From a virus, in IMG/VR virus record IMGVR_UViG_3300038420_000019, positions 1-21,549 of that record: 21,549 nt of DNA; one strand, written 5' to 3'. This document shows, one piece after another, positions 1,856-21,549 of the stretch. Numbering within the stretch: the first letter of the stretch is position 1; the number at the start of each line of letters is the position of its first letter. Under the pieces are notes generated by a model that saw only the letters and a program-made list of their open reading frames with translations, did no database searches and was not told the DNA's origin. The translations under genes and the position numbers were made by a program.

Positions 1856-3028
1856 ATGCTTTCGCAGGTCGTTGCGAACGATCCGGTCGCCGTCCAGATT
1901 TACAGCCAAAGGTTCTTTGCACAGCCCGTAAAGTCGCCCGTTCTCGTGAAGATGATGGCGGCGTCGTTGAATCCGCGCGACATGACGAATTTCGCGCAGT
2001 ATTTCGACGAACCGCTGCATGGACCGGGCGACAATGTTCGGTACGACCTACTGCCGAACATCGCCAGCCTCGGTGTGCTGGGGGATGCTCCAGTGACGGG
2101 GCAGGAAGTGCCGATCAAGTACACGTCGGGGGTGGTGGTAATCAATCAGCACCGGCTCCCGATTCTGTGGAATGGCCGAATGAGCCAGCAACGCGCTCCG
2201 TGGTCGGCACGGGACGCGATCTACGTCATCGCGTCGAACTGGATCAAGGAGCTTTGGGGATACGCGGCGCTGAATCAGGCGGCGGGAAACACTGGACAGC
2301 CCGATGTACGGGCGACTGGAATGAACCCCGTCACTGCGATTGACTCCGCGCATATCATCCTTGCTGGCGGGGTCGCAAACATTGCGGCGCTGACTCAAAC
2401 GCCGGCAGCCAGGTTTGAACTCGGCATGATCAATCAGGCGGTTGCGCTAACGCGCGCGCTACCGTTTCCGATCAAGCCGGTGGTGGTGAAGGGAATCGAG
2501 ATCAACGGTCTGATCTTTATCCACACCTATCAGGCGCGTGATCTACGGAACAACTACGATCGCGGGCAGTGGGGAGATATCTTCTCCAGTCTGCTTCAAG
2601 GCGGCATCGCGACGGGCAACCCGATATTCGTCGGAGCCCTTGGAATCATCAACAATTGCCCGATTCACGAAGATGCTCACGTTCCGTGGGGCGATTCGAC
2701 GCAAAACCTCTGGTTCAATCCGAATGCCGCAGGTGGCAACGGTGCGCTGGTCGCATCGCCGGGCGCACTCGGAGCACCGGGCAATGGAACAACTTCAGTC
2801 GCCTACGGCATTATGGTCGGAGCGCAGGAATTGGCGGTGTCATTCGGCGCGGTGGACATTGTGGACAGCGAGCCGATGCGGGTCAATTGGTACGAGGAAT
2901 TGCTGGATGCGGGCAACGATCTACGAGTGACGCTCACCATGATCTACGGCTTCCAGCGGACGATCTTCTACGGCCAGACATACGCTGGTATCGGCCTTTA
3001 CAGCTTCGCGTCGCCGACAGGAGCATAA
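1856..3028 (+). CDS. Major capsid protein, N4-gp56/DUF4043 family
   Basis: This 390-residue protein forms the icosahedral shell. Family signs are the N-terminal GDNVRYDLLPNI (58-69) and GQEVPIKYTSG (82-92) strands. The conserved NGRMSQQR stretch (about 106-113) precedes a helix that runs into SNWIKELW. FIHTYQARDLR (221-231) and GALGIINNCPIHE (260-272) match the second conserved half of N4-gp56-type capsid proteins. Length is in the family range. An AAAGGAG ribosome site (1842-1848) lies seven bases before the ATG. A weak promoter-like pair (TTGTTG 1805-1810, 17 bases, TACAAC 1828-1833) lies just upstream and could restart transcription after the inserted endonuclease gene. This family occurs in N4-like, Bcep22-like and other short-tailed phages, and it is the main reason for calling the window a podovirus-type phage. 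Confidence 0.93.
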   Translation: MLSQVVANDPVAVQIYSQRFFAQPVKSPVLVKMMAASLNPRDMTNFAQYFDEPLHGPGDNVRYDLLPNIASLGVLGDAPVTGQEVPIKYTSGVVVINQHRLPILWNGRMSQQRAPWSARDAIYVIASNWIKELWGYAALNQAAGNTGQPDVRATGMNPVTAIDSAHIILAGGVANIAALTQTPAARFELGMINQAVALTRALPFPIKPVVVKGIEINGLIFIHTYQARDLRNNYDRGQWGDIFSSLLQGGIATGNPIFVGALGIINNCPIHEDAHVPWGDSTQNLWFNPNAAGGNGALVASPGALGAPGNGTTSVAYGIMVGAQELAVSFGAVDIVDSEPMRVNWYEELLDAGNDLRVTLTMIYGFQRTIFYGQTYAGIGLYSFASPTGA

Positions 3029-3040
3029 GGAGAAACGATC

Positions 3041-3625
3041 ATGGCACAAGTTAATTGGTACGCTGCTGATTACGGCAACACGCCGCCGCAGATGCAGCAA
3101 TTCACGCCGGTCGTGCGACCTTTCAACGTCCAAGTCAATACGACCGCCGGAGCCAGCTACGGGACACAAGGCTATGCGCCTGTTTCGACGCTTACCTCGA
3201 CCTCCCCAGATCAGATTCATCTTTGCACTCTGCCCGCTCAGGGCTCAGGCATCGTGATTCTCGATTGGTTTCTTGACTGCGGGGAACTCGATACTGGCAG
3301 CCATGCGCTCGTGATGGAACTCGGCCTTGCGCTTTTGACGCTGGACCCGCTACAGAACACCGCACAGGCATTGGGCTTCTTCGCAACCGGGATCACGCCG
3401 GGAGCTGGTGGCGGTCAGGTCAGTCCGCAATACGCCGGACTCAGTGCCACGATTGTCAGCGGTGCCGTGCCCTATACCATCGCGGATGGATTGCCGAATA
3501 CCAATGGCGGTCTCTATGACTTGGTGCTGACGGTGACGACCTCGGCGGGTACTGTGTCGGCAACCGCCGCGTACATTCGCGGATGGATTCGATACGCACA
3601 AGTCTCACAACCTTGGGCCAATTAG
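3041..3625 (+). CDS. Probable capsid decoration or minor head protein
   Basis: This 194-residue protein lies 12 bases after the major capsid gene, with a strong AAGGAG site in the gap. It is rich in Thr, Ser, Gly, Ala and Val and predicted mostly beta-strand, with no charged helical region, signal peptide or membrane segment. That pattern, together with its place directly after the major capsid gene, fits a capsid-stabilising or decoration protein that coats the shell. I do not recognise a named family. The last strand pair (AAYIRGWIRYAQVS) ends close to the C-terminus. The stop codon TAG (3623-3625) overlaps the stop of the minus-strand LAGLIDADG gene, so the two genes are tail to tail with no spacer. 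Confidence 0.65.
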   Translation: MAQVNWYAADYGNTPPQMQQFTPVVRPFNVQVNTTAGASYGTQGYAPVSTLTSTSPDQIHLCTLPAQGSGIVILDWFLDCGELDTGSHALVMELGLALLTLDPLQNTAQALGFFATGITPGAGGGQVSPQYAGLSATIVSGAVPYTIADGLPNTNGGLYDLVLTVTTSAGTVSATAAYIRGWIRYAQVSQPWAN

Positions 3626-4218
3626 GCAAATCGGCGAGGACGTTGAGCAGTACGGAGCCAAAGATCGTGACGACCAGCAGCATCGAGATGTTTGTACCCA
3701 GCCTTGAGCAGTTCGGCTATCGGACGCTTGATGATGAGATATGGCAAAATCTCGTTGATGAGAACGATGGCCGGATTGGTCGAAACCATCCAGCGGTGCA
3801 TTTTCATTTTTCCAAAACGATTCAGCCGATGATCGGTGCAGACGTTGCCAGCAGGAATTTTCTTGTGGAGCCAGTCGACGACTTCGCGATTCGTATTGCC
3901 GATAGAAATCCAGATTCGGCAGCGATTTGTCATTACTCCAGCCCGACGTTCTTTGGCAAAACTGATATTCCCCTCGCCATCGAGAAGACCGGCAAGATAC
4001 CCCCGCTCTGCCTCAGTCAGTTGCGAGATAATGGTATCTTGATCGAATCGTCTTCGATGCGAGCAAAGGCCGAGTCTCTGCATTTTGTTGGCTATCGCAT
4101 TAGGACTGCGGCCAAGTTGATCAGCCAATATTCTCAAATTCGGATGCGGGCTTGGCGCTTCGTAAAGAAACTGAAGATCACGTTTTGTCCAGCGTGGGCA
4201 TTTATGGCTCTGTTGCAT
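3622..4218 (-). CDS. Free-standing LAGLIDADG homing endonuclease with N-terminal HTH
   Basis: This is a 198-residue protein read against the structural genes. The signature is YLAGLLDGEGNISF (74-87), with the LAGLLDGEG helix at 75-83 and the catalytic acidic residue expected at E82. Only one such motif is present, so the enzyme should act as a homodimer on a partly symmetrical site. The C-terminal part has the usual IVLINEILPYLIIKRPIAELL helix pattern (151-171). Residues about 9-51 (WTKRDLQFL…ILADQLGRSPNAIANKMQRLGL) form an added helix-turn-helix domain. It occupies the whole gap between the decoration-type gene and the next small gene, as expected for an intergenic mobile endonuclease. The start codon lies inside a 34-base inverted repeat. 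No clear promoter or Shine-Dalgarno sequence is seen upstream. Confidence 0.9.
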   Translation of the reverse strand: MQQSHKCPRWTKRDLQFLYEAPSPHPNLRILADQLGRSPNAIANKMQRLGLCSHRRRFDQDTIISQLTEAERGYLAGLLDGEGNISFAKERRAGVMTNRCRIWISIGNTNREVVDWLHKKIPAGNVCTDHRLNRFGKMKMHRWMVSTNPAIVLINEILPYLIIKRPIAELLKAGYKHLDAAGRHDLWLRTAQRPRRFA

Positions 4219-5712: not shown

Positions 5713-6354
5713 ATGCCGAATCAGCAAGGGCAGTTGACATGGGCCGATGTGAAAGGACAGGTTGCATTCCGCCTCAATCGGTCAACTCTCGATCCCGCCT
5801 TCATCCAATTGATGGCCGAAGAGCGTGCGGACATTCTCGCGTCCGAAGGCTACTACCCGTCGCAGATCACCGACACGTCGATCACGACTCAACCCGGCCA
5901 ATACATGTACTTGCAGCCGAAGGGCACCGTGAAGATTCTCATGGTGCGCTTCTTGCTCACACAGGTTTGGATACCGCTCTCATGGGCGCGGCGCTACGAG
6001 GACATCCTGCTTGCCGATCCGGTGCAGCCGCCGTTTACCGCGATCCCAAGTTCGGCGCGGTCATTCGGCAGACTGCTCAGATTATTTCCGACACCAAACG
6101 GGCAATATCCGCTCGAATTGTCGCTGGAAGCAGCGATCCCGGTGCCGACCGACGATCAGGACACGGAAAGTTTTTGGGTGAACGAGGGCCGTCCGCTCAT
6201 GATCAATATGACTTGCCAGCATATCGCGCAGGAATATCTCCGCGATCCCGACCGGGCGGCATTGCATGAGAAGTCGGCGAACGAAGCAAAGGATGCGCTT
6301 GAGGAACAGACGCATACTCGGAATGGGCCGGTCGTTTTAGACCCGCACTACTAA
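5713..6354 (+). CDS. Probable head-tail adaptor protein
   Basis: This protein has 213 residues. The N-terminal 60 residues contain helices typical of phage adaptor proteins (LTWADVKGQVAFRLNR then DPAFIQLMAEERADILAS). A beta region follows, including FGRLLRLFPTPNGQYPLELSL (about 116-136), which resembles the LRLxPxPxxxYxLxL strand of podovirus adaptor or gp11/SU10-type connector proteins. The C-terminal half is helical (EYLRDPDRAALHEKSANEAKDALEE quoted in part). Such proteins form the ring that joins the portal to the tail nozzle. Its place two genes before a nozzle-like protein supports this. The assignment rests on pattern and order rather than a strong signature. The longer overlapping frame from 5709 is a shadow. 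Confidence 0.65.
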   Translation: MPNQQGQLTWADVKGQVAFRLNRSTLDPAFIQLMAEERADILASEGYYPSQITDTSITTQPGQYMYLQPKGTVKILMVRFLLTQVWIPLSWARRYEDILLADPVQPPFTAIPSSARSFGRLLRLFPTPNGQYPLELSLEAAIPVPTDDQDTESFWVNEGRPLMINMTCQHIAQEYLRDPDRAALHEKSANEAKDALEEQTHTRNGPVVLDPHY

Positions 6355-6368
6355 AGAGAGGAATCGAA

Positions 6369-6797
6369 ATGAAAAGCAAACTGCACTACATCGTTCTTGG
6401 CCTGATCGCCTTGATCGTGACGGTGGGACTCGTCACAAATCCGCCGGGCAGCGCGCGCGCCGGTTATTCGGGTTCGACGCCGGTTGCGGTTGGCACGGCT
6501 ACGCCTGTCGTCGTCATACAGGCGGGCAACAAGAGCCTTCTCACTCTCTGTAATACGAGTGCGGCCAACACCGCCTACTGCCTGGCTGGACCAGCCGCGA
6601 GCATCGGCGTCGTATCGAGCACCAACTGGAATATCATCGTTCCCGCCGCCGTCGCGTCGGCTGGCAACAGTTACGGCGGATGCTGGAATTCGCCGCTGCT
6701 TCAGAAACCGACTCAGTTGGGTCAAGGTGTTGCAATACCGGACCAGATAAATTGCATCGGGAACGGCCCGATTACGATGCAGTATTACTATCGTTAA
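6369..6797 (+). CDS. Exported small cysteine protein inside the tail gene block
   Basis: This protein has 142 residues and an AGAGAGGAA ribosome site before the ATG. The N-terminus is a classic Sec signal peptide: basic MKSK, hydrophobic core YIVLGLIALIVTVGLV, and an ARA cleavage site after A31. The mature part is beta-rich with four cysteines (C61, C71, C105, C129), enough for two disulfides. It begins GYSGSTPVAVGTATP, resembling the Thr/Pro/Ala-rich starts of later exported products. No known domain is recognised. A secreted protein between the adaptor and nozzle genes is odd, since these parts assemble in the cytoplasm. It may change the host envelope, exclude other phages, or use the hydrophobic stretch as a membrane anchor during DNA delivery. 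All of these are inference. Confidence 0.75.
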   Translation: MKSKLHYIVLGLIALIVTVGLVTNPPGSARAGYSGSTPVAVGTATPVVVIQAGNKSLLTLCNTSAANTAYCLAGPAASIGVVSSTNWNIIVPAAVASAGNSYGGCWNSPLLQKPTQLGQGVAIPDQINCIGNGPITMQYYYR

Positions 6798-6820: not shown

Positions 6821-8296
6821 ATGCCTGTACCGACACCCAGAACGAGCACGCCATCGCAGCCAACGAGGTATAGCGATTACGCGCCTGATACCGATCCGAT
6901 CACGCCGGGTAATGTCCAATCCTCATTTGGCTATTATCCCTCAGAGAAAGGGTTTCGCACTTTCCCCGGCCAGCGCGTTCTAGGTTCCGGCCTCCCTTCT
7001 ACTTGTCTCGGCGCGTACAGCGGCATTCTGCTGACGCTGCCGACCGCCACGGTTCCCGCGCCTCCATCGACACCAATTCTTGTCGGCGCGACTGCGCAGG
7101 GGCTTTACGTTGCCGATGCGAACAGCAATATGAAAGTGTCCCAGCTTGGATTTCTGAACGGGACAGGCACGAATCCGACAAATCGCTGGCGCTTTGCAGC
7201 CTATGGACAGGATTTGCTTGCGGTCAACGGCGTCGATGCGGATCAATTCTATCGGCTTTCGGCTGCAAAGTGGGCACCGCTGCCAGCGGGGGCGGATGGC
7301 TCTACGGCTCCGGTTGCTGCAATCGTGGAGGCGACCGATTACGCGATCATTCTGGTGCCGCCGAATTCCTACAGCTTCGTTTCCTCATTGTCAGACAGTC
7401 CGCCGAGTTGGCTTGGGTCGGTTCCGAATCAGGTCTATATTCAGCCAATTCAGCAGACCGAAGGCGCGATCACGGCGGTACGGCGGCTCCGCAACACGGC
7501 GATTTTCTACAAGGCCAATTCCATGTTCGTCGGCTACTTCAATGGCGGCACGACGGGATGGGACGTGCAGGAAGTGTCGCTGCAAATTGGAGCGCCTTGC
7601 CAAGAGGCGGTAATCAACACCGGAGACTACCACTACTTCTATGATGGAGTGTTTAAGTTCTGGCAATTCGACGGCTGGAATCTGACAGAGCTTCCGAATC
7701 ACCTGATCGAATGGTTGCAGCGGGACATAAACCCCGCCTACGCTCAGAATATGGCGGGACAGTTCGATTCGAGCCGAGACTTGCTTATCTGGTGCTACTC
7801 CAGCAAGTACGCGAATCCCGAAGGCTCTTTCGATAGCAGGCTGATTCACTATCGGCGTCAGCAGCGATGGGCGTTCGAGCGGCTGGCGGTCGATCTGCCG
7901 ATTCCGAGTCTGTATCAGGCTCCGAGCACCGGACTTCAATATGCGGGCTTTTTCAGTACCGAGCACGCGCCAATCGTGTACGATAATGCCGTGACGCCGG
8001 GGCAGGCATATATTACAAGCAATCTTTTCGGGGACTACTTTTATGTCTTCGAGTCTCAGCGCGTGCGTCCGGGCTTCGGACCTAACGGGTATCCGACCTA
8101 TTCGACACTGACGGCGCTGAATCAGAACAAGGGCGGTGGGTATCAGTGGATTGGGCCGACTGAAACTCTGACCGATGATGGCTGGTATGATTTGAAGAAT
8201 ACGGCTCGCTTGCAGAGCTACCAGCTAACGACTCGCGGGTTTGCGGAAGTGATCGAATTGCAGCCTGTGTTGATTCCATGCGGAGATGTCGGCTGA
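6821..8296 (+). CDS. Probable tail nozzle/stabilisation protein (P22 gp10 / tubular-B type)
   Basis: This 491-residue protein is almost entirely beta-strand, with repeated propeller-like blades. Typical pieces are ILVGATAQGLYVADA (86-100), RWRFAAYGQDLLAVNGVDADQFY (123-144, quoted in part as the AYGQDLLAVNGVD core), and later GAPCQEAVINTGDYHYFYDGVFKFW, where a repeated blade ends in aromatic residues. The AxYGDxLxAxNGVDxxQ pattern is characteristic of podovirus tail nozzle or stabilisation proteins, the six-fold assembly beneath the adaptor ring. Length is similar to that class. It follows the adaptor-like gene, separated by the small exported protein gene. Its stop overlaps the next start (TGATG). 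The ribosome site is weak (GGACGGAAT further upstream), so the start is slightly uncertain. Confidence 0.7.
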   Translation: MPVPTPRTSTPSQPTRYSDYAPDTDPITPGNVQSSFGYYPSEKGFRTFPGQRVLGSGLPSTCLGAYSGILLTLPTATVPAPPSTPILVGATAQGLYVADANSNMKVSQLGFLNGTGTNPTNRWRFAAYGQDLLAVNGVDADQFYRLSAAKWAPLPAGADGSTAPVAAIVEATDYAIILVPPNSYSFVSSLSDSPPSWLGSVPNQVYIQPIQQTEGAITAVRRLRNTAIFYKANSMFVGYFNGGTTGWDVQEVSLQIGAPCQEAVINTGDYHYFYDGVFKFWQFDGWNLTELPNHLIEWLQRDINPAYAQNMAGQFDSSRDLLIWCYSSKYANPEGSFDSRLIHYRRQQRWAFERLAVDLPIPSLYQAPSTGLQYAGFFSTEHAPIVYDNAVTPGQAYITSNLFGDYFYVFESQRVRPGFGPNGYPTYSTLTALNQNKGGGYQWIGPTETLTDDGWYDLKNTARLQSYQLTTRGFAEVIELQPVLIPCGDVG

Positions 8297-9000
8297 TGGC
8301 GACTCCTAAACCACTGCCGCTTCGTCTGATACCGAAACCAGCGCCACGCTCAATGCGGCTGGCGGATAGTGTCGGCAACCATGAAAAGTACCTGCTGACG
8401 CTTTCGCAGTTCCTACAGCAGAACAATCAGGACTTCCAGACTTCGGCGACTGACCAGAACGGGCAGGAAAGCGGTGGGATCGTGCTGGCGCAGCATCTAC
8501 CGTCACGCTTTCATGCCTACCAGTTGAGTGCGCCCATTGCGCCTCATGTCGGCGATCTGCCGAGCCAGCCATCGGCGGTAACTTACGACGGGCCTTTGAA
8601 CCTGACGGCGGCTTCGCTTCCCAATGGCGTGAATTCGACCTACGGTTATAGTCGCTGGACCGGCTACATCAATCCGCCAACTCCCGCACTCTACACATTT
8701 CATCTAAAGTCAGCGGGCGGCGGCTCGAATCTATTTATCAACAAGCAGCAATTGGTTGGCGCTCTGACCGCAAACTCAGTGAATCAGGCCGCGCAGATTC
8801 AACTCGGCGGCGGTCCTGTACCTATCGTGACTGAATTTCAGTACGGCACCGAAGATCCAGCCCTATCGCTGATGTATTCTGTTGGGGGCGGAACCCCGGC
8901 ACTTGTGCCGAATAGCTGGCTATCAAATTCGGTAAATCAGATGACGGGCTACTTGGTCGGATATCATTGGAACGGAAATAGGGCGTGCTACTACCCATGA
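8296..9000 (+). CDS. PA14-domain protein of the tail region
   Basis: This protein has 234 residues. The start at 8296 overlaps the nozzle gene's stop and is preferred over an upstream in-frame codon. Residues about 115-210 follow the PA14 pattern: YSRWTGYINPPTPALYTF, then a glycine turn and LFINKQQLV (146-154), an EFQYGTEDPALSLMYS strand pair (180-195), and a closing VPNSWL (204-209). PA14 domains are beta-barrels that often bind carbohydrates and occur in glycosidases, adhesins and toxins. Residues 30-95 are helical and may attach the protein to the tail. A role in recognising host surface sugar fits the place after the nozzle gene. No catalytic domain is visible. Confidence 0.7.
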   Translation: MATPKPLPLRLIPKPAPRSMRLADSVGNHEKYLLTLSQFLQQNNQDFQTSATDQNGQESGGIVLAQHLPSRFHAYQLSAPIAPHVGDLPSQPSAVTYDGPLNLTAASLPNGVNSTYGYSRWTGYINPPTPALYTFHLKSAGGGSNLFINKQQLVGALTANSVNQAAQIQLGGGPVPIVTEFQYGTEDPALSLMYSVGGGTPALVPNSWLSNSVNQMTGYLVGYHWNGNRACYYP

Positions 9001-9518
9001 ACAACAAGAACGGACATATTCAAGTTGCGCCGACCATCAGGCTCCGCATGGTGAAGGCGGATCGAGCGCGTATGGTTGCCGAGTGGCCGAAAGTCCGGCT
9101 GGGCTGCCTTATGCTGAAAAACTCCGACAAGTATGCCGACGCGGGGAATTGGACGCCGGAGCACATTCGCGCGCAACTTGAGATGGGCTTTGTGGGCCGG
9201 AGCAGTTGCGAACTGTTCTGTTTCGATAACGAGCAGAATCAGATGCAAGGCTTCGCCGTCACGATCATCGGCAACTGCCCGTACTTGCAAGTGCCTCAGT
9301 CGTTGATTTTGTGGGTGGTCTATAGTTTCCGCCATCCGACCGGCGCGGAATCGCGAACCATGCTGCGGGAATTGAAAGCCTATGGGAAATCCTTGGGTCT
9401 GCTCTATGCGGATACCTACACGATTGATCCGCGAATCGCGCTGTATCTCCAACGCTACGGCGAGAATTTCCGTGTTGCTCAAACATTGATGAGAGCAAAT
9501 CTCTGGGAGACAAGCTGA
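8997..9518 (+). CDS. GNAT acetyltransferase-like protein
   Basis: This protein has 173 residues. ATG at 8997 overlaps the previous stop (ATGA); an ATG four codons earlier is possible. The order of elements fits a GNAT fold: ELFCFDNEQNQMQGFAVTII (beta hairpin), SLILWVVYSFRH (central strand), a helix SRTMLRELKAYGKSLG, then LLYADTYTIDPRIALYLQRYG and FRVAQTLMRANL. The usual Q/RxxGxG/A acetyl-CoA loop is degenerate here (HPTGAESRTM), so activity is uncertain. GNAT-like proteins occur in tail regions of several short-tailed phages with unknown role. The alternative is a structural protein that kept only the fold. Confidence 0.45.
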   Translation: MNNKNGHIQVAPTIRLRMVKADRARMVAEWPKVRLGCLMLKNSDKYADAGNWTPEHIRAQLEMGFVGRSSCELFCFDNEQNQMQGFAVTIIGNCPYLQVPQSLILWVVYSFRHPTGAESRTMLRELKAYGKSLGLLYADTYTIDPRIALYLQRYGENFRVAQTLMRANLWETS

Positions 9519-11143: not shown

Positions 11144-12210
11144 TGCCAGATACCGATACAGAATCCGGCTCTCTTTGGAGCAGAGTCAAAGACCTCCTGC
11201 CTCTTGTCGCTGACGCTGCGATTGGCGGTGCCATAGGCGGTCCTGCGGGCGCGGTTGCCGGTCTGGGCGGCGCGGGGCAGGCGGAGTTTAAGCAGCAGGA
11301 ACTTAATCAGCAGAAACAGAATCAAGCGTTAGAACGGGCAATGCGGGCGCGACGCACGGCAGTTGAGCAGCAGCGGGCCGACCAGCAAAAGAGTTACCAA
11401 GATCAGGAAGTCACCGCGCGCAATCAGGAAGTCCAACTTCGCCGCGACGAATTCAATCAGCGAGTAGGCGCAGCCGCGAAGACTGACGACGCATACAAGC
11501 AATGGGTGAGCGGTCAGCCGAAGGACGACCAAGAGCGTTTGCTAGCTATTCCGCCGGGAACGGCTCGTAACAGCATTATCACCGAGCGCGAAAAGAACCG
11601 AGACGCCGAGAAACATCGCCCGCAGCTTATGGCCGATCTCGCAAAGCGTGGAGTTGATCCATCGACGCTTGACGGCGTTCCAGCCCGCGACATGGCGCGA
11701 ATGCTTACGCGTAAACCAGAGACAGGGGCTAAAGTACCCAAGCCGCCGAAGCCGACCGACATTCTGGCCGAGCATGTCGAACTCGGCAAAGGAATCACCA
11801 CAGCAAGCGATGCGTGGGACAAGGCGCATCCGACTACGGGCGATCCTAATCTCGATCCTGACTCCGCAAAGGTCGCTCCCGCGAAAGCGGCATGGATGAC
11901 TCAGCGGCTTGCGCTGACGAACAAGGCATACAATCGGATGTCGCCGGAAGAACGCAAGTCGTTTCAAACGGCGCTAACCGGCTATCTTAAGGGCGGCGGG
12001 ACTGACTTGCAGACGTTCTTGGATTCCCACTTTCCGACGACGCCACCGACTGCGGCTCCAGCACCCAAGGCAGAAACGCCTAAGACTGAAGCGGCGGCAA
12101 AACCGTCTGCACCTAAAACACCACCGGCCGGACTGCCGGCGGGTTCTACGCCCAACGATGACGGCACATGGACCTTGCCTGATGGAACGAAAGTGAGACC
12201 GAAGAAATGA
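11143..12210 (+). CDS. Coiled-coil protein with Gly-rich hydrophobic N-terminus, likely ejection protein
   Basis: This protein has 355 residues. After a short polar start, residues 20-45 (VADAAIGGAIGGPAGAVAGLGG) are Ala/Gly-rich and hydrophobic, like a glycine-zipper membrane segment. Residues about 47-108 form a highly charged, Gln-rich coiled coil. The middle part is soluble and helical. Residues about 298-330 are an Ala/Pro/Thr/Lys linker, and the end reads DDGTWTLPDGTKVRPKK. A glycine-zipper followed by coiled coil is common in internal virion proteins that cross the cell envelope. It overlaps the stop of the previous gene and the start of the 1514-residue gene, so all three are co-translated. 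Function is inferred. Confidence 0.6.
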   Translation: MPDTDTESGSLWSRVKDLLPLVADAAIGGAIGGPAGAVAGLGGAGQAEFKQQELNQQKQNQALERAMRARRTAVEQQRADQQKSYQDQEVTARNQEVQLRRDEFNQRVGAAAKTDDAYKQWVSGQPKDDQERLLAIPPGTARNSIITEREKNRDAEKHRPQLMADLAKRGVDPSTLDGVPARDMARMLTRKPETGAKVPKPPKPTDILAEHVELGKGITTASDAWDKAHPTTGDPNLDPDSAKVAPAKAAWMTQRLALTNKAYNRMSPEERKSFQTALTGYLKGGGTDLQTFLDSHFPTTPPTAAPAPKAETPKTEAAAKPSAPKTPPAGLPAGSTPNDDGTWTLPDGTKVRPKK

Positions 12211-15200
12211 TCACTACGGGCGCACAACCTGATACTTACGATCCGCGTCTCTGGGAGCCGGTGAAGTCCGCGCCGGCTTACGATCCGAAGTTGTGGGAAC
12301 CCGTGAAAGCGGAAGCATCGCCAGAGCTGACGCTCGAACAAGCCGAAGCAGAAAGGGAAAAGATCGAAGGGCCAGGGCCCGAACTTGAGGACGCACCTAT
12401 CGCAAATGCCATGATCGCGGGTGCTGCGAGTGGCGGAGTTGGCGCATTAAGAGAAGGCGCAACTGAAGCTTTCGGCAGTTTCGCCGGTCCCGATCTTGCA
12501 TCGCTTGCTGTGAATGTTGTGATACGGTCGCTTGCGGAAGGTGTCGATTGGGGCGCTTTTACGATACTGTCTGATTGGGGCGACAAGCTGATCGGCGGGC
12601 CTCTCAAGAATCATCCGTATCTACGGGAGGCTCTTGACGTGGCTGGCGGCGTTGGCCTTGCGATGAAAATGCCAAGCGCAAGCCGTCTGCCAGGACTGCG
12701 ACTATCCGCGGCGGAAGCGGAGCGGGGAGCGGACGTGCTCCATCGTCTCGCCGAGCATCGCGCTCTCGCTGGACCAGAAGAAGAAATGGCGGGTACAGCA
12801 ACTGATTTGTTCGAGGAACCGCCCGCACCGAAAGCCAAGGAACCAGTCGAATTCAAGCCGGAGCAGGAAGTTCGAGAGCCAGAGCCGCCAAAGGAAATAC
12901 CACAGCCGAAAGAAGACATACAGCAGGCGGTAGCGGCAGGCGATACGGCTAGCGCCAAAGAAGGCGTGCTACAGGAACTTGAACGTCATCCGTCCGCCCA
13001 AGTGTATGAGATGAAAGTCGGCGATATGAAGCGCGATCCCGAACGATTCCAGTACAAAAAGGGAACCGATCCAACGACGGGTGCGGGCGCTGCGCTCGGC
13101 GACATCAAGACTTATGACCGGGGACTCGGCGGCGTCATTACGATGTATCACGATCCCGATGGTCAGTTTTACGTTGCAAACGGCCATCAGCGCGTCGATG
13201 CCTTGGAACGGCTGGAAGGGCCGGAAGCCAGTCACCGCGTCCAGATAATCGAATCACGGCCGGCGGACGATCCAGAAGCTACAAAAGGTGCGATTCGATA
13301 CGGACAGACGCCAGAGCAGGCACGTTCTTACGGGGCGATCATCAACATTGCCGAAGGTCGCGGCACTGCGATGGATGCGGCACGCTTCTTTCGTTCGCAG
13401 GGCATGGACACCTCGACGATGATTGAACACGGTATCTCGCTCGATCCGCGCGAAGAAAAGACGCTGCAAGCGGCGGCGCTCTCCCAACTATCGCCGATGG
13501 TCTTTCGTGCCGTCGATCATGGCGTCCTGCCGCAACGTTTGGGTGTCGTCATTGGGCGCGAACTTGGCGACAATCCGACTGCGCAAGATGCGCTCTATCA
13601 GATGCTCAAGAAACGCGGATTTCGCGATATGGGGGCGTCGAAACTCGGTGAGATGTTACGGCTCGCCAAGGGCGCAGGAGAAACCACCGAAACGACGATG
13701 ACGCTCTTTGGCCCGGAGACGATGAAAAAAAGCCTGCTGATGGAGCAGGCCGACGTTCTGGCGGGTATCAAGTCCCGGCTGGCTTCCGAAAAACGGCTGT
13801 TCGGTACGGTTGCAGGCGGTGCCGAGCAGATTGAAGAAGCAGGCGTCGGCAAGGTCGATGCCGATACTGGGGAGCATCTATCTACGGTCGCCGCACAGAA
13901 TCTCGAATTGCTGGGGCGAACGGCCTACGGCGCGGGGCCAGTGAACGATGCCATTAAGGACGCGGCGAAAAAACTGGCGGAAGGCAAGACCAGCAAGAGC
14001 GCAATCATCAAAGAGGCATACCAGAAAGTCGCCGATGAGTTGGGCAAGATCATTCCCGAAGCGCCGCAGCAACGCGAGTTAATTCCAGCAAAGTTTGTGG
14101 AACCGGCAGAGCCTGAACCTGTTTCGGCGGCTGAGCCTAAGGAGCCGGAGCCGGTCGATATGTATTCCGGCTTGCCGGTTGCGCAGATTGCGCGCAACGT
14201 AGTCGATGCGCTTCCTGAAAACGTCCGTAACTATCCAGCGCAGATCGGCAAGCAACTTGTCCGCACTTTCGCGCCGGAAACCGATGGCGCATTCGCCAAG
14301 CGCGCGACTGAGATTCAGGAATCCAAAGCGTCGGAGCTTCGCGCCCGCATCGGTTCCGCTTCTCGCGCCATGCGACCGCTACGCGCATGGTTCGATTCAC
14401 AGCCGGAGTCGGCACGTTATCAGCTTTCATCGGCGCTCGAACGCGGCGATAGTAGCGCCCTGCCAGATGAACTCAAGCCGTTCGGTTCCGCAATGAAGCA
14501 GATTACCGACGCGGCGCACGATCGCCTGAATACGCTCAGGCCGGATCAGGAAGTCGGCTACATCAACAATTATTGGCGGCATCTATGGGCGAATAAGCCA
14601 GAAGAAGTGCGGGATGCTTTTGAATCGCTCAAATCTGGCGGTGGAAAGGCGCTGACTGCGGGCAAGGGATTTCTCAAACAGCGTAAATTTCCGACGATGG
14701 CTGAAGGTATCCAAGCCGGACTGACACCGAAATTCAAGAATCCCGTCGATATGTGGCTGGCGGGTGTGCAGCAGGAGTGGCGCTACCAGACTGGAACCGA
14801 GATGTTTAACGCGCTCAAGGATTCCGGACTAACGCACTATGTTCGCGTAGCTGAGCGTCCACCAAAAGGATGGGCCAAGATTGATGATTCGGTGGCTCGC
14901 GTGCTGGCTCCGACAGAAAAAGGCATCGCGCAGCTTGGAGAGTACTATGCGCCGGAAGAAGTCGCGCGAATCTTCAACAACTATCTGAGTCCAGGATCGG
15001 GTCTTAATCCGCTCATCTCGTTATCGGCCGCAGGCAATCGACTCCGCGTGGAATTTTCAGCTTTCCACTTCATGCTGACTTCGCTCTCGAATATGGCGGG
15101 ACAAGTCGGGGATCAGTTTATGGCTGGCGTGGGAGACCTGATGCACGGTGACACCGGAGCCGGGATGCTCAAGATCGCAACGACACCGCTCAAGGTGCTC

Positions 15201-16751
15201 AGTTCCCCATTGCAAACCTATCGGGATTGGAAAGTCGGCAAGAACGTCATTGCCAAGGCGCTGGACGGTCGATTTGAAGACCCGATGGTGCAGGATGCGA
15301 TGCTTGGCGGTCACGATTTCGGCATGGGGGACCACGAGACGGGAAGCGCGATAGGAGCGGCATCGCGTGGTGTGCTTGGCTGGCCGGCGCAACTCGCCGA
15401 GAAATTCGGCGCGGTAATGAAGCATTGGGTGTCGCCGCTCAAGATCGGGACCGCCATGCGGATGTACGGGGCCAAACTTGACGAGGCCGCGCGAGAAAAC
15501 GGTGATCAGGCTTTAAGCATGGCTGAGCGGCGGACTATCGCGGTTAATGTCCGGCGTCACATGGACAACGTGATGGGGATGATCCACCGGGACAATCTTC
15601 ATTTCAGCAACGGAATGAAGGATGCGCTGCACATGGTTGTTGCGTATCCAGGCTGGCAGATTGGCTCGATTCGCCTGACTGGCGGGGCGGCTCGCGGCAT
15701 TGCTACGGGGCTGCGTGGCGGTGAGATGGACGAGCAGGCAGCGATGGCGCTCCGCTACGTCTCCGGCATGATTATCACCAGCGGCACACTTGGCACGATT
15801 ACCAATTATCTGATGACTGGCAGGATGCCCCGAAGCGTATCCGAAGTATTCCTGTGGCCTACGGGCAAGAAAGACGCCAATGGAAACGACGTGCGGATTG
15901 TGCCGCCTGAATACCTCGTGCGGGACTATCTGAGCACGCTAGGCCATCGGCGCACGCAGCCGGGAAATGACATCATGGCGTGGCCGAAAGCGCTTGGAGA
16001 AACGGCGCTATCGAAGATGAACTGGCCGTTGGCAGCAGCCGGATACATCATGCGGAATGCCGACTACTTCGGAAAACCGATTAGCTTTCCCGATCTCGAT
16101 AGCCAGCCGCAGTCGCTTCGCAACATCGTCAATCAGATCGTCAAGTACGGAGAGACGATTGGTAAGGAAGTCGAACCGTTCTCGATGTCCAACTATGAAG
16201 AGGCAAAACGCCAAGGCGTCGGCGGAATTCGCACTGGCCTTGCGGCTGGGATAGGGATGACACCGGAATCCCGCGTCTTGCGGCAGACTCCGGCACAGAA
16301 CTTTATCGATCGTTTCAAGACGCCAAGCCAGCAGCCGCAATCTCCCGATCAGCAACAGCGTCAGCAGATACTTGGGCAGTTTGAAGCCGATCTGCGCCGT
16401 GCCCGCCAAGGCGGAGCGCCGGTCAACTTCGGGCCGATCAAGGATGCACTGGCTAAGGGATTGGTTACGACTCAGGAAATTAAGGAGCGAGAAGCTGATG
16501 CTCGGCTTCGTCCGTTCGCCAGTGCTGTTAAGAAACAGAATATCGGCGTAGCCTTGCAAGCGTGGAAATTGGCGCATGACAATGGCGATACGCAGGACGA
16601 AAACGACGCGGCGCGGGCGATCTTTGCGAAGCTCAGGAACAAGGATTTGCAGAAGTTGCCGCCCGATCAGCAGGCGCAGGCAAGGGGATTGCTGACGCGG
16701 TTTCTAAAGGCTGCGACAGGAAGAGAAGAGAGCGCGGAGGCTCGACCGTGA
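12207..16751 (+). CDS. Large polyvalent/internal virion protein with ParB-like domain
   Basis: This is a 1514-residue protein. Residues 11-34 carry a tandem YDPxLWEPVK repeat. Residues 62-160 have Gly/Ala-rich helices and include AFGSFAGP, shared with the 4897-5283 product. A Pro/Glu/Lys-rich linker follows (about 203-240). Residues about 265-345 resemble a ParB/DdrB-like domain: VYEMKVGDMKRDPERFQ, then GQFYVANGHQRVDAL, where NGHQR (325-329) is the typical catalytic-loop motif. The C-terminal half has the pattern of large polyvalent proteins, with EVGYINNYWRHLW near 780, LKQRKFPTMAEGIQAG, and hydrophobic stretches near 948-966 and 1181-1203. Polyvalent proteins are thought to be carried in the head and injected with DNA, where the ParB-like part may act on host or phage DNA. 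The Gln-rich tail after about 1370 is likely flexible. The end overlaps the next gene (GTGA). Confidence 0.8.
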   Translation: MITTGAQPDTYDPRLWEPVKSAPAYDPKLWEPVKAEASPELTLEQAEAEREKIEGPGPELEDAPIANAMIAGAASGGVGALREGATEAFGSFAGPDLASLAVNVVIRSLAEGVDWGAFTILSDWGDKLIGGPLKNHPYLREALDVAGGVGLAMKMPSASRLPGLRLSAAEAERGADVLHRLAEHRALAGPEEEMAGTATDLFEEPPAPKAKEPVEFKPEQEVREPEPPKEIPQPKEDIQQAVAAGDTASAKEGVLQELERHPSAQVYEMKVGDMKRDPERFQYKKGTDPTTGAGAALGDIKTYDRGLGGVITMYHDPDGQFYVANGHQRVDALERLEGPEASHRVQIIESRPADDPEATKGAIRYGQTPEQARSYGAIINIAEGRGTAMDAARFFRSQGMDTSTMIEHGISLDPREEKTLQAAALSQLSPMVFRAVDHGVLPQRLGVVIGRELGDNPTAQDALYQMLKKRGFRDMGASKLGEMLRLAKGAGETTETTMTLFGPETMKKSLLMEQADVLAGIKSRLASEKRLFGTVAGGAEQIEEAGVGKVDADTGEHLSTVAAQNLELLGRTAYGAGPVNDAIKDAAKKLAEGKTSKSAIIKEAYQKVADELGKIIPEAPQQRELIPAKFVEPAEPEPVSAAEPKEPEPVDMYSGLPVAQIARNVVDALPENVRNYPAQIGKQLVRTFAPETDGAFAKRATEIQESKASELRARIGSASRAMRPLRAWFDSQPESARYQLSSALERGDSSALPDELKPFGSAMKQITDAAHDRLNTLRPDQEVGYINNYWRHLWANKPEEVRDAFESLKSGGGKALTAGKGFLKQRKFPTMAEGIQAGLTPKFKNPVDMWLAGVQQEWRYQTGTEMFNALKDSGLTHYVRVAERPPKGWAKIDDSVARVLAPTEKGIAQLGEYYAPEEVARIFNNYLSPGSGLNPLISLSAAGNRLRVEFSAFHFMLTSLSNMAGQVGDQFMAGVGDLMHGDTGAGMLKIATTPLKVLSSPLQTYRDWKVGKNVIAKALDGRFEDPMVQDAMLGGHDFGMGDHETGSAIGAASRGVLGWPAQLAEKFGAVMKHWVSPLKIGTAMRMYGAKLDEAARENGDQALSMAERRTIAVNVRRHMDNVMGMIHRDNLHFSNGMKDALHMVVAYPGWQIGSIRLTGGAARGIATGLRGGEMDEQAAMALRYVSGMIITSGTLGTITNYLMTGRMPRSVSEVFLWPTGKKDANGNDVRIVPPEYLVRDYLSTLGHRRTQPGNDIMAWPKALGETALSKMNWPLAAAGYIMRNADYFGKPISFPDLDSQPQSLRNIVNQIVKYGETIGKEVEPFSMSNYEEAKRQGVGGIRTGLAAGIGMTPESRVLRQTPAQNFIDRFKTPSQQPQSPDQQQRQQILGQFEADLRRARQGGAPVNFGPIKDALAKGLVTTQEIKEREADARLRPFASAVKKQNIGVALQAWKLAHDNGDTQDENDAARAIFAKLRNKDLQKLPPDQQAQARGLLTRFLKAATGREESAEARP
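12237..12308 (+). repeat. Tandem YDPxLWEPVK coding repeat
   Basis: Two 30-base units (12237-12266 and 12279-12308) encode YDPRLWEPVK and YDPKLWEPVK at residues 11-20 and 25-34, separated by four residues. The units differ at several third positions, so selection at the protein level is likely. They may be short docking peptides. Confidence 0.75.
12467..12493 (+). repeat. 27-base exact direct repeat, copy 2
   Basis: This copy is identical to 5085-5111 and encodes AFGSFAGP in the N-terminal part of the 1514-residue protein. Flanking bases differ immediately on both sides. Confidence 0.9.
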
Positions 16752-19700
16752 AGTTGAGACACTTTATTCCGATGCTGTTGCTTTTATTCGCGGCTCCCGC
16801 ATGGGCGCAGACACCTACGCCAACAGATACCCCGACGGCTACAATCAGCGTCACGCCGACTGCAACAGCCACAGCTACGACCACGGCTACGCCGACAGGC
16901 TGTGGAACGCTGGTGCAGGCGATAAACGGCAATACGGCTTCTTGTAGTGCAGCATTTCCGACTACCAACAGCTTTACTCCGACTGCTGGAGAATTGATTG
17001 TCGTCAACGTGAGCATTTCGGGAACTGGCACGACCCCCTCATCAATTACCGTTACCGACACGCAAGGGAATCTATGGATTCCGCACCCTCAAAACAACAA
17101 TGCAAATGTTTGCTCACCTACCGCTAGTGTTTGCGCCGCCCAATTTGCGACTATCGCGAAGGCAAGCACCGCTGATGTTGTGACAGCTCATATCGGAGCA
17201 CCCGGTTCGGGGACTTGCAGCGGCACGATTTCGGTAGTGGACTTATCGGGCAACGCGGCCTACGCCGGTTACGATGTTTCAAATTGGGGCAGCACGGGAT
17301 ACAGCACGACTCAAATAACCGGGCTGACGCCGACTACATCAAACAATGCCGAAATTATCGTCGGCATGTCAGGTATCAATGGATCGAATCTAGGGGCGAC
17401 AAGCGGGCCTACGGAATATGGAACGGCTAGCGGCTCGAGCAGTACGGCAATCAACACTGTGCTCCGTAATAGCGCGCAATTTGTCGGCTGGGTCAATCAA
17501 AATGGTGCGGGCACTGAGGGGTTGAGTTGGACGACAAGCCCAAATGTCTATAACACCGGCTTAATCGGCGCATTCCTTTGTGCAGGCGAATCAACTCCAA
17601 CTCCATCGCCAACGATAACGCCGACTCCAACCGCAACAAAGACGGTGACTCCGACGCCGACCAAAACGCCCACTGTGACGGCAACACCTACGATCAGCGC
17701 AACGCCGACAATCAGTGCGACCGCGACTGCAACCGCAACCAAAACTGCGACCGCCACTGCGACGCCCACGGCAACACCCACGGCGATTGCAGGATGTCCG
17801 CTATTCATTTCGGAAATGTCGCCTACTTCGCTTTGGGTTCCGCCGAGCAGCGGGAACACGATCCCCGATTCCATCGACTCCAATCCGCTGACGATTCAGG
17901 GCGATTCCAACTATACGCTCGAACCAGGCAACGCGATCTACTGTAACGCGCTGCAAGGGCCGAACGGCTGCGATCTGACCAGTTCGGTTGCTTATACCAG
18001 CCCGCAGCCGATGAGCTTGCTTGTGGCGTATTCCGGCACGGGTGGGCCGCTGGCTCAATTCGGCGGTTTTTCTTCGATTCAGAGCTTCCAGCAATTCTAC
18101 GAACTCTATCTGGATACCTTCGGAAAGCTCAGTTTCGGTACGTTCAATTACGGTGCTCTGAACGTGCTCCAGAGCAAGACGCCGCAGAATTACGCCGATG
18201 GGAATGAACACATTGCGGTCGCGAGCATCGGCAATCAGGGGATGAATCTATACGCCGATGGAACCAAGCTCGGCAGCCTGAATTCCAGTCTCGCAAACTA
18301 TACCAACGGATACTGGTTCTTCGGCGGGGCCGCGCTGACTGGTGCAAGCCCGTCGGGAAATACATGGCCTTATGCTCCGCCGTCCTCGTGGTTTAACGGA
18401 ACTCTCTATTGCATGGCGTGGTGGAACGGAACGCAACTGACGGATCAGCAGGCGCAATCCGCAACGCTGAACAAGCCGATTACTCCAGTCAATAACAACT
18501 ATGCGACGATCACCGGCTCGATCGCTTCTCTGGTTCAAGGGACGGGATACGCTTACGCGAATCAGACGGTGACCTTTAAGACTCAGCAGTCGCAGGGGTC
18601 GTATCTGCCGGGGTGTGGTTCTCAAGTGCCTATCGCGCCGTCGCAGATGACGTATCAGACTGACTCGCAGGGCAATCTACCGAGCGGCTTACTCATCCCA
18701 CAGGGTGCTCACGTCACATTCCAAGTCAACTCCGGGCCTGCGGTTCCGCTTACGGTGTCTTGTCAGAACAGCGTGGACATCGCGAGTCTGATGCTGGCTC
18801 AGAACGATCCGCCAGACGTAGTGGATGCGGTAGCTGTGCAAGGACCAGTATTCGCGGGAACGACGGTGACGAATCCGGGTCCGGGACAGACAGGTACAGC
18901 GACACTAACGGCACCGGGGAGTCAATGCCAACCCGCAAGCGGCAGTACAACGCTTAATCTTGCCAACGGTAATACTCAGTGCGTGACGCTCTCCGCAAGC
19001 TCGACGGTGACTCTAAGTGGCATGATCGATGGACAGCAAACCATCGTGGATACGATTGAGAATGCGTTGGGCGGTTATACGCCAACTTTTGCGGTCCCTG
19101 CCGGGTATTCACTGGTCTGGTCGGGTGGTGGTACTCAGCCGTCTTCTGCAACGGCAGCCAATACCTACAGCCAGTGGTCGTTCATCACTATCGGAACCGC
19201 CGTTCAAGGCGCGTTGATCTCGTCTCCGACAGGCGGAAATACTTTCTCGACTTTGAACGTGACTTCGGGCATCGCCGATACGGGCCAAGTGACAGTCACT
19301 CCGATCACGGCAGAATTGCCGACTGTGACGGTAAACGGAACCACCGGAAGCACGTCGTACAGCTATGCGCTGCAATGCAACGACGGAAATGCGGGAACGA
19401 CTTGGCCTTTGTCTTTCGTAACCGTAACCAATGGCAACGCCACACTGAGCGGAACGAATTTCAATACGATCGCTGCGGCGGCGCAGCAGGGATGCGTCTC
19501 ATGGACTGTGTTCAAAACGAATAGTTCGACGGTGTTGGGCGCGATTGCTTCTCCAACTGGCAGCCTGAATGACACCGGGCAGGCGACTTCGACCTACAGC
19601 GGCGCGACGGTGAATACGACTGGACAACTGAGTGCCGCCTTTCTCGCCGGGGATTTAACCACGCTTACAACAGTCGGCGACATGCTGACTGAAAACAGCG

Positions 19701-20845
19701 CCGATGAGAACGTCAGACTTCCGGGCTCGATAACTCAACTGCCGACGCCTCCAGCGCCGACAATCACAACCTTTGGCACGGCGGGCTCGACGACCTACAC
19801 CTATTATCTCGTCTGCCATGACCGATATGGAAACAGCAGCTTGCCCACAGGCGGCGGCTCAACCGGCCTTGGCAACGCGACTCTCAGCACGAGTAACTAT
19901 AATATCGTCACCCTCCCTGGTGAAGTGGGCTGCCTGACGTGGGACGTGCTTTCCCCTGATACTGCGCATTCAGTCGCATTGGCTCAACCCGGACCGACTT
20001 TCAACGATTATGGCTTGGGCTCAAGTCCCTACACAACGCCGACACTGAATACGACGGCTGCGGATTCCTACCTGCTCAGTTCTCCGAATACCAGCGCGAG
20101 CCCGATTCTGCCAAATCCGCCGACATGGCAAACGATTTTGCCGTCGGATGTTTCGGGGTTCGATAATGTGACGGTGACGGGCATACCAGCGCAAAACTCG
20201 CTGATCGTAGGAACGGGGCCGAATACTGCGACTTGGCAACCGGGGCTCAACATCACACAACTGATTACACATGGAGAACGGTGCTTTACCGCAACAGGTA
20301 CATACACGATTCCAGCCAATGTATACTCGATGGTCGCTGATTGCTGGGGTGGCGGGGGTGGGGGTGGCGGATATGGTTCGGGGGATACGGCGGGCAGCGC
20401 CGGCGTCATAACGACGCTCGCTTATGGATTCAGCACGGTTTGTTCGGCGGCTGGCGGATCGGGAGGGCCGGGTGCTACTCACGGTAATGCGGCCAATGGC
20501 GGATTAGGCGGTGTAGCCGGAAGCATCGGCGCGTTGAACATAGCTGGAAGCAATGGCTTCTCAGGGCTTACTTCGGGAACAGTAACAGCGACAGTAGGCG
20601 GTGGCGGCTTGGGAGGCATCGCGCCAGGATTGGGAAACGGCAGTTACGGGGCTGGCGGCAACGGTGGCGGCGGCAACAGCAACGGTGGTGGTGGTGGCGG
20701 TAGCGGCGCAAAGAATGAAAACCAGTTCGCGGTGACGCCGGGCGGTACGCTTACACCGACTGTAGGCACTGGCGGCGCTGCTGGGACTGGCGGAGATGAT
20801 AACGGCAATCCCGGCGCAGCAGGTCTGATTTGCATAAGTTGGTAG
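16748..20845 (+). CDS. Giant exported modular fibre/adhesin-like protein
   Basis: This 1365-residue protein starts at GTG 16748 behind a GGAGG site and overlaps the previous stop. Residues 1-20 (MKLRHFIPMLLLLFAAPAWA) are a Sec signal peptide with an AWA cleavage site. A Thr/Pro/Ala linker follows (21-50), then a beta-sandwich-like domain (about 52-277), a second longer TP linker (279-349), and a LamG/concanavalin-like domain (about 405-577, with HIAVASIGNQGMNLYADGTKLG). Further beta regions lead to two related domains of about 95 residues (about 853-950 and 997-1102). From about 1179 the protein is a glycine-rich tip, starting with TATGTYTIPANVYSM and CWGGGGGGGG, as in phage fibre tips. About 22 cysteines are spread along the chain. 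It is probably a receptor-binding or adhesive protein. A signal peptide on a virion protein is unusual, so secretion to the host surface is the main alternative. Confidence 0.75.
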   Translation: MKLRHFIPMLLLLFAAPAWAQTPTPTDTPTATISVTPTATATATTTATPTGCGTLVQAINGNTASCSAAFPTTNSFTPTAGELIVVNVSISGTGTTPSSITVTDTQGNLWIPHPQNNNANVCSPTASVCAAQFATIAKASTADVVTAHIGAPGSGTCSGTISVVDLSGNAAYAGYDVSNWGSTGYSTTQITGLTPTTSNNAEIIVGMSGINGSNLGATSGPTEYGTASGSSSTAINTVLRNSAQFVGWVNQNGAGTEGLSWTTSPNVYNTGLIGAFLCAGESTPTPSPTITPTPTATKTVTPTPTKTPTVTATPTISATPTISATATATATKTATATATPTATPTAIAGCPLFISEMSPTSLWVPPSSGNTIPDSIDSNPLTIQGDSNYTLEPGNAIYCNALQGPNGCDLTSSVAYTSPQPMSLLVAYSGTGGPLAQFGGFSSIQSFQQFYELYLDTFGKLSFGTFNYGALNVLQSKTPQNYADGNEHIAVASIGNQGMNLYADGTKLGSLNSSLANYTNGYWFFGGAALTGASPSGNTWPYAPPSSWFNGTLYCMAWWNGTQLTDQQAQSATLNKPITPVNNNYATITGSIASLVQGTGYAYANQTVTFKTQQSQGSYLPGCGSQVPIAPSQMTYQTDSQGNLPSGLLIPQGAHVTFQVNSGPAVPLTVSCQNSVDIASLMLAQNDPPDVVDAVAVQGPVFAGTTVTNPGPGQTGTATLTAPGSQCQPASGSTTLNLANGNTQCVTLSASSTVTLSGMIDGQQTIVDTIENALGGYTPTFAVPAGYSLVWSGGGTQPSSATAANTYSQWSFITIGTAVQGALISSPTGGNTFSTLNVTSGIADTGQVTVTPITAELPTVTVNGTTGSTSYSYALQCNDGNAGTTWPLSFVTVTNGNATLSGTNFNTIAAAAQQGCVSWTVFKTNSSTVLGAIASPTGSLNDTGQATSTYSGATVNTTGQLSAAFLAGDLTTLTTVGDMLTENSADENVRLPGSITQLPTPPAPTITTFGTAGSTTYTYYLVCHDRYGNSSLPTGGGSTGLGNATLSTSNYNIVTLPGEVGCLTWDVLSPDTAHSVALAQPGPTFNDYGLGSSPYTTPTLNTTAADSYLLSSPNTSASPILPNPPTWQTILPSDVSGFDNVTVTGIPAQNSLIVGTGPNTATWQPGLNITQLITHGERCFTATGTYTIPANVYSMVADCWGGGGGGGGYGSGDTAGSAGVITTLAYGFSTVCSAAGGSGGPGATHGNAANGGLGGVAGSIGALNIAGSNGFSGLTSGTVTATVGGGGLGGIAPGLGNGSYGAGGNGGGGNSNGGGGGGSGAKNENQFAVTPGGTLTPTVGTGGAAGTGGDDNGNPGAAGLICISW
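16808..16897 (+). repeat. Thr/Pro/Ala linker, first segment
   Basis: Codons for residues 21-50 alternate Thr with Pro or Ala directly after the signal peptide cleavage site. Third positions vary, so this is a protein-level repeat and not a perfect DNA microsatellite. Confidence 0.85.
17582..17794 (+). repeat. Thr/Pro/Ala linker, second segment
   Basis: This is about 71 residues of alternating Thr with Pro, Ala or Lys, including two TPTISA units in a row. It joins the first beta domain to the LamG-like part. It is extended and a possible O-glycosylation target if exported. Codons are degenerate, so slippage is less likely. Confidence 0.85.
19304..20053 (+). repeat. Two diverged cysteine-paired fibre domains
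   Basis: The units at about 19304-19597 and 19736-20053 share the order PTxTxxGTxGSTxYxYxLxC, then GNATLSxxNxNxI, GCxxW and a DxG close. This resembles a beta domain common in phage fibres. Each unit has one cysteine after the first strand (LQCND, LVCHD) and one before the tryptophan (GCVSW, GCLTW), which could form a disulfide. Boundaries are approximate. Confidence 0.65.
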
Positions 20846-20853
20846 GAGAATTT

Positions 20854-21402
20854 ATGAAACGTGGCAAACTGATTGTTCTCTTTCTGATTGCGGGCTGTCT
20901 CTATGCGATACCCGATGCCCGCGCTCAGACTGCAACACCAACTGCCACGGCCACCGCCACCGCGACGGCAACCACGACGGCGACTGCGACAGCGACCACA
21001 ACGCCTACAATTTCAGCCACGCCGACGGCGACAGCCACGAGCAGTCCATGCGCTCTTTCAACGCCAAGTTCTACGAGTGGCTTGAGCGGCCGATATACTT
21101 GTTGTTTGACGCAAGTGGGTTCTTCAGTAGCTCCGGTTCAGGTCAAACCGCCGTGGCCTATGACTACATGGAGTATTACCTGGAGAACGGGCGGCGCGGC
21201 TCCTGTTTTAATTTTCCCATATTCAGGGACTTTACCAAGCACCGCGCCAGCGAATGCGCATGAACTGTCGAGTCAGAATTCGTCCTATAGTGATTCCGTG
21301 GGTGTCGCGACACCCAGCGGCCTTAATGGCATTGGGGAAGCATGGGCGGCAGTATTGGAGACGGGAAGCACACAGGTTCCCGTAGACGCCTGCTGGAGAT
21401 AA
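20854..21402 (+). CDS. Exported protein with Thr/Ala linker, possible lipoprotein
   Basis: This is a 182-residue protein. The frame is open eight codons upstream, but AGGAG at 20844-20848 sits five bases before ATG 20854, which gives MKRGKLIVLFLIAGCLYA. The N-terminus is a signal peptide. It could be cut after ARA at residue 24, giving QTATPT as in the previous product. It also contains a lipobox-like LIAGC with C15, so lipid attachment is possible. Residues 26-65 are almost purely Thr/Ala/Pro and include TPTISATPTATAT, matching the linkers of the 1365-residue protein. The mature domain (66-182) has four cysteines (C66, two adjacent in YTCC, one in DACW) and is beta-rich. No family is recognised. 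It may partner the large exported fibre-like protein encoded directly upstream. Confidence 0.75.
   Translation: MKRGKLIVLFLIAGCLYAIPDARAQTATPTATATATATATTTATATATTTPTISATPTATATSSPCALSTPSSTSGLSGRYTCCLTQVGSSVAPVQVKPPWPMTTWSITWRTGGAAPVLIFPYSGTLPSTAPANAHELSSQNSSYSDSVGVATPSGLNGIGEAWAAVLETGSTQVPVDACWR
20929..21048 (+). repeat. Thr/Ala linker, third segment
   Basis: About 40 residues consist almost only of Thr and Ala with a few Pro, following the signal peptide of the 182-residue protein. The unit TPTISATPT is shared with the second linker of the upstream gene, which suggests duplication or shared descent. Confidence 0.8.
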
Positions 21403-21404
21403 CA

Positions 21405-21549
21405 ATGCGGCGCATCTGGCTTCTTATGATCGCCTTTCTCCTGCTCCCTTGCGCGGCATCAGCGCAAAATTCCAGCTACGGCCAGATTCCCGGCACCACC
21501 GTGTATGGTCCTCCGCAAGCCGTCAATCAAGTGTTAACATCAACAGCGG
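21405..21549 (+). CDS. Exported protein, N-terminal part only (runs off the window)
   Basis: ATG at 21405 follows the previous stop by two bases and opens 48 complete codons to the window edge. The start is a clear Sec signal peptide: basic MRR, hydrophobic IWLLMIAFLLLPCA, and an ASA cleavage site before QNSSYGQIPG. LLPCA is a weak lipobox alternative. The mature start (IPGTTVYGPPQAVNQVL) lacks the Thr/Pro linker within the visible part. It is the third exported product in a row, but its domain content cannot be judged. Confidence 0.7.
   Translation, partial: MRRIWLLMIAFLLLPCAASAQNSSYGQIPGTTVYGPPQAVNQVLTSTA

Follow-up and report, generated by a model that had tools for sequence, protein, structure and literature searches.

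A tail-fiber locus encoding putative Sec-exported proteins in podoviruses from soil and peat

Results

Putative export from a tail-fiber locus

Judged from their sequences, the proteins encoded at the tail-fiber locus of a podovirus clade from soil and peat are Sec-exported. We propose that these proteins are translated late, together with the virion genes, and would pass to the periplasm, where the signal peptide would be removed and the disulfides closed. With type I signals and no membrane anchor, most of the proteins would, if the host is diderm (we assume an outer membrane) and there is no outer-membrane exit, be retained in the periplasm until lysis. Lysis would free them with the virions, and most likely they would then dock on the tail as receptor-binding fibers. 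We give a probability of about 0.4 to this reading, in which fibers are exported, disulfide-bonded, and stored in the periplasm, and are joined to otherwise complete tails no earlier than lysis. The signals, their conserved place, the cysteine pairing, and the fiber-type modules are supported by the sequences; from these we infer that the proteins are in fact exported and cleaved, are held in a periplasmic depot, and dock. These soil phages thus probably complete their adhesins beyond the host cytoplasm, an unusual arrangement among tailed phages.

Gene order in the window

The window, the whole stretch of DNA analyzed (21,549 nucleotides), is the whole of IMG/VR record IMGVR_UViG_3300038420_000019, a single 21.5-kb metagenomic fragment of a podovirus. 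Its gene order is capsid, adaptor, nozzle, ejection-type proteins, a cysteine-free 1514-aa protein, and then the exported genes 1 to 3; the capsid, adaptor, nozzle, short tail appendage, 1514-aa, and four exported genes are all on the plus strand. The major capsid protein (1856 to 3028) served as query for relatives and outgroups, and the homologues of the tail adaptor (5713 to 6354) and of the nozzle or tail stabilization protein (6821 to 8296) served as synteny references. The 1514-aa protein (12207 to 16751), presumably an ejection or internal virion protein, forms the left border of the exported cassette. A match of this protein to phrog_21 ('portal') was taken as misnaming; the portal candidate, judged by length and place, is a 718-aa gene located upstream (L003:3426-5582). 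A 416-aa gene between portal and scaffold (L003:6071-7321) resembles ATP-grasp enzymes by eye. The 1514-aa protein has a domain in common with Dunaliella viridis virus SI2 (L011, HQ332136.1), which is recorded as an algal virus and classed in Caudoviricetes.

The exported genes

Gene 1 (16748 to 20845, 1365 aa) has a GTG start that overlaps the stop of the upstream 1514-aa gene by 4 bp. Given this overlap, and since no promoter or terminator signals above chance were found, a single operon is likely. The N-terminus (MKLRHFIPMLLLLFAAPAWA↓QTP) was called by rule as a signal peptide with an AWA↓Q cleavage site. The signal is followed by a linker, domain 1 (about 52 to 280), a second linker (about 283 to 345), a ConA/LamG-like region (about 397 to 560), central modules, and a Gly-rich C-terminal tip; the mature protein has 22 cysteines. 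Gene 1 has no evident means of leaving through the outer membrane or of being anchored there, and there is no strongly hydrophobic segment that could serve as a membrane anchor in mature gene 1 or gene 2. A search of solved structures with the gene 1 profile returned no matches, and two structure predictions (pLDDT 52 and 37) were too poor for fold searches. A solved-structure match of a protein from contig G013 was taken as low-complexity linker similarity.

Gene 2 (20854 to 21402, 182 aa) encodes a signal peptide, a Thr/Ala/Pro linker, and a small domain with a cysteine pair; it starts with the ATG at 20854 rather than with the TTG at 20830. The signal (MKRGKLIVLFLIAGCLYAIPDARA↓QTA) has an ARA↓Q site. 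It also fits a lipobox (LIAG↓C), which makes the ARA site uncertain, and gene 2 may be a lipoprotein. The lipobox is absent from genes 1 and 3 and from the fourth exported gene, and by eye none was seen in the signals of the gene 2 homologues. These homologues are in contigs G005, G013, and G022, and the cysteine pair of the small domain is kept in four phages. A match of gene 2 to PF21827 (New_glue) fell below the cut-off and covered the signal and linker; we regard it as a composition effect.

Gene 3 (21405 to 21549), of which the contig holds only the first 48 aa, begins with a signal peptide with an ASA↓Q site (MRRIWLLMIAFLLLPCAASA↓Q). The fourth exported gene (6369 to 6797, 142 aa, four cysteines), with the signal peptide MKSKLHYIVLGLIALIVTVGLVTNPPGSARA↓G, has the tail adaptor gene on one side and the nozzle gene on the other. 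At the corresponding position in the relative L005 (8120-9309), three adjacent small genes carry export signals. Shine-Dalgarno motifs precede the starts of genes 1, 2, and 3 (GGAGG, AGGAG, and GGAG, respectively) at a spacing of 5 to 7 nt.

The sequence-only reading had described genes 1 to 3 as three adjacent signal-peptide genes, two of them with Thr/Pro/Ala linkers and the first with a Gly-rich, fiber-like tip. All three signals held up, with the ARA site of gene 2 in doubt because of the lipobox, which that reading had missed; the linkers amount to 98 residues in gene 1 and 56 in gene 2, and the tip, present in gene 1, occurs in three members of the family.

Relatives and distribution of the signals

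Single-query searches of viral contigs with gene 1, gene 2, and the 1514-aa protein gave no usable relatives. A DNA pattern for signal-plus-linker proteins (AQT(A/P)T...) returned contigs G005 (58 kb) and G013 (39 kb) plus many unrelated matches; having come from that pattern, these two contigs are not independent tests of the signals. The capsid alignment led to G021, G022, G028, and others, and L211 was found via the mature part of gene 1 only. Other linker-bearing contigs (G010, G014, G017, and G020) are at most candidate carriers of such tail cassettes. The homologues of gene 1 share 54-64% identity in two stretches (G005), 49% over 277 aa (G013), 40% over 585 aa (G021), and 42% over 879 aa (G022). 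No prophage or host was found in genome contigs searched with two capsid alignments. The record name of G028 (IMGVR_UViG_2626541854_000001) suggests an origin in a single bacterial genome, not a metagenome.

Signals were called with a home-made rule set (positive n-region, hydrophobic h-region, and AxA site), not with SignalP. By these rules the window's exported proteins have the n-region, h-region, and AxA site of a Sec and signal peptidase I substrate, gene 2 being ambiguous. In 60 other viral loci, a simple scorer passes about 4% of the genes that are 100 aa or longer; with the same scorer, the signals in the window exceed chance. In the relatives, export signals are again found on genes after the large ejection protein. 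When one rule was applied throughout to six divergent phages, signals were called on two of the 115 genes that precede the ejection-protein gene and on 27 of the 38 that follow it (Fisher P=5e-19); the phages in our counts are related, so that P values overstate independence. Some of the misses are rule failures by eye (e.g., G021 33856). In L211, as judged by eye, the gene 1 homologue and its neighbors have signals, and the start of a farther downstream gene is lysozyme-like.

The window is a single metagenomic fragment and the rule set is simple, so the signals could in principle stem from host DNA, from an assembly error, or from N-termini that are hydrophobic by chance. We consider such an artifact very improbable: the arrangement is kept in independent contigs from other samples, and Shine-Dalgarno motifs are found at 25 of 36 starts vs. 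13% at random positions.

Among the outgroups (eight phages), one of 106 post-capsid genes has a signal. Paracoccus phage KLEP18-1 matches in gene order, including the acetyltransferase-like gene. At the cassette position it has gp22 and gp23, both annotated 'putative tail fiber', which have no signals and contain zero and two cysteines; the 'structural protein' labels in this phage may rest on proteomics. In Microcystis phage Mae-JY35, a cultured cyanophage, a tail-fiber gene is directly followed by one for a subtilase (L202:19373-20605; Peptidase_S8, 59 bits), whose N-terminus is signal-like.

Signal divergence and cysteine content

In two pairs of gene 1 homologues, 8 of 20 and 8 of 22 signal residues are identical (36-40%), whereas the mature N-termini of the same pairs are identical at 66 of 105 and 74 of 95 positions (63-78%). 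Diverging signals beside conserved mature sequence are what one expects of export signals, not of a docking peptide.

The mature parts of the exported proteins contain 361 cysteines in 15268 aa. Of the 36 proteins, 33 have an even number of them (P=2e-7), compared with 65 even and 43 odd counts among the controls. The presumed cytoplasmic ejection proteins have none. Richness in cysteine together with even counts implies disulfides formed outside the cytoplasm. This argument does not cover G028, whose five tallied proteins are nearly cysteine-free and were left out of the parity count.

Tail fibers are normally cytoplasmic products, and the cleavage of the signals is here predicted from sequence; ordinary cytoplasmic fibers could also keep the N-terminal helix uncleaved, as a segment that docks on the tail or acts on membranes. 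This is unlikely, since the segment varies in sequence yet retains its n-, h-, and c-regions and AxA sites, the cysteines pair, and the outgroup fibers have no such segment. The signals in divergent relatives, the even cysteine counts, the divergence of the signals, and the signal-less outgroups make it highly likely that the proteins of this cassette truly leave the cytoplasm.

Fiber-type modules and a signal-less tail appendage

Several exported proteins carry modules of the fiber type. G028 has a Peptidase_S74 domain with TAIG repeats behind a signal, G021 has collagen-like repeats behind a signal, and matches to tail-spike and virion PHROGs are also found behind signals. The gene 1 family has a LamG/ConA domain, and modules have been gained and lost at its C-terminus. 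Fiber-type modules with swapped C-termini are found, with S74 and the collagen repeats in the relatives only and not in the window. S74 and LamG are also found in bacterial surface proteins and do not prove a role in the virion. The cassette occupies the tail-fiber place in the structural operon, by synteny with KLEP18-1 and the relatives; the export signals depart from the tail fibers of tailed phages, which fold in the cytoplasm and carry none. It is likely that the exported proteins are adhesins or receptor-binding proteins. No shared tail-docking domain was identified across them; one small family shares a domain that follows the signal, and the domain searches gave no match to a known docking domain.

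In several members the nozzle gene is followed by a signal-less gene whose product starts Pro-rich and continues with a helix and a small domain. In the window this candidate short tail appendage (8278 to 9000) consists of a Pro-rich N-terminus, a helix, and a PA14 domain, and KLEP18-1 likewise has a signal-less gene at this position. The appendage may be the real short fiber, or a socket on which exported fibers dock. Its presence means that virions may manage without the exported set, and the finding of signal-less appendages led us to abandon an early idea that these phages export all their fibers.

The exported proteins might never enter the virion. They could instead act on the infected cell, on neighboring cells, or on debris, whether as adhesins (free or cell-bound), as receptor blockers, or as enzymes that degrade polysaccharides. 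The signals and cysteine pairing agree with this, as do the separate signal-less appendage, the Thr/Pro/Ala linkers, which are typical of bacterial surface proteins, and the possible lipoprotein encoded by gene 2. Against it, the genes belong to the late structural operon and occupy the ordinary tail-fiber position, fiber hallmarks such as S74 occur, and gene 1 shows no obvious outer-membrane exit or anchor. We regard this alternative as a serious possibility, though short of an even chance. Docking of the exported proteins on virions comes close to an even chance and is the best explanation overall. The in vitro addition of P22 tailspikes to heads makes late docking plausible.

Three explanations had been offered from the sequence: secreted adhesive proteins, fibers completed outside the cytoplasm, or another use of the N-terminal helix. 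Real export is borne out, and the third has little in its favor; the evidence is compatible with secreted adhesins as well as with fibers completed outside the cytoplasm.

Comparison with known systems

The cassette shares its order and its place after the ejection proteins with the P22/T7-type podovirus tail-fiber cassette (KLEP18-1 gp22-gp23), which differs in that its proteins are nearly free of cysteine and lack signal peptides. The coat proteins pIII and pVIII of filamentous phages are Sec-exported virion proteins, and pIII has disulfides. However, filamentous coat proteins are membrane-anchored until assembly at the membrane, whereas mature genes 1 and 2 show no anchor, and the phage here is a tailed dsDNA phage. 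The superinfection-exclusion lipoproteins Llp of T5 and Cor are phage-made envelope proteins; these are small lipoproteins, whereas in the window only gene 2 has a possible lipobox.

Some phage endolysins are exported by Sec, including Lys44 of fOg44, and P1 Lyz and R21 with SAR (PMC6116005); exported endolysins and the cleavable signal of the T4 antiholin RI have been described (PMC6116005, PMC8385771). Like the cassette proteins they are late phage proteins exported by Sec, but they are single lysis enzymes, whereas here there are runs of fiber-like proteins. Five rumen phages have zero to two signal peptides each (PMC5723332). The sequence-only reading knew of no described system of this kind; this agrees with our limited search of open-access papers, a weak negative, in which no description of Sec-exported fiber cassettes in tailed phages was found.

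If fiber-type proteins do pass through Sec, disulfides and possibly glycosylation would be open to phage adhesins. Either virion assembly would be split over two compartments, or tailed phages would have a large arsenal of secreted adhesins.

Other genes in the window

Two genes on the minus strand, either side of the capsid gene (1048 to 1752 and 3622 to 4218), resemble, by eye, HNH and LAGLIDADG homing endonucleases. The gene at 8985 to 9518 is retained between the nozzle and ejection genes among the relatives; at the equivalent position, gp18 of KLEP18-1 is annotated as an acetyltransferase.
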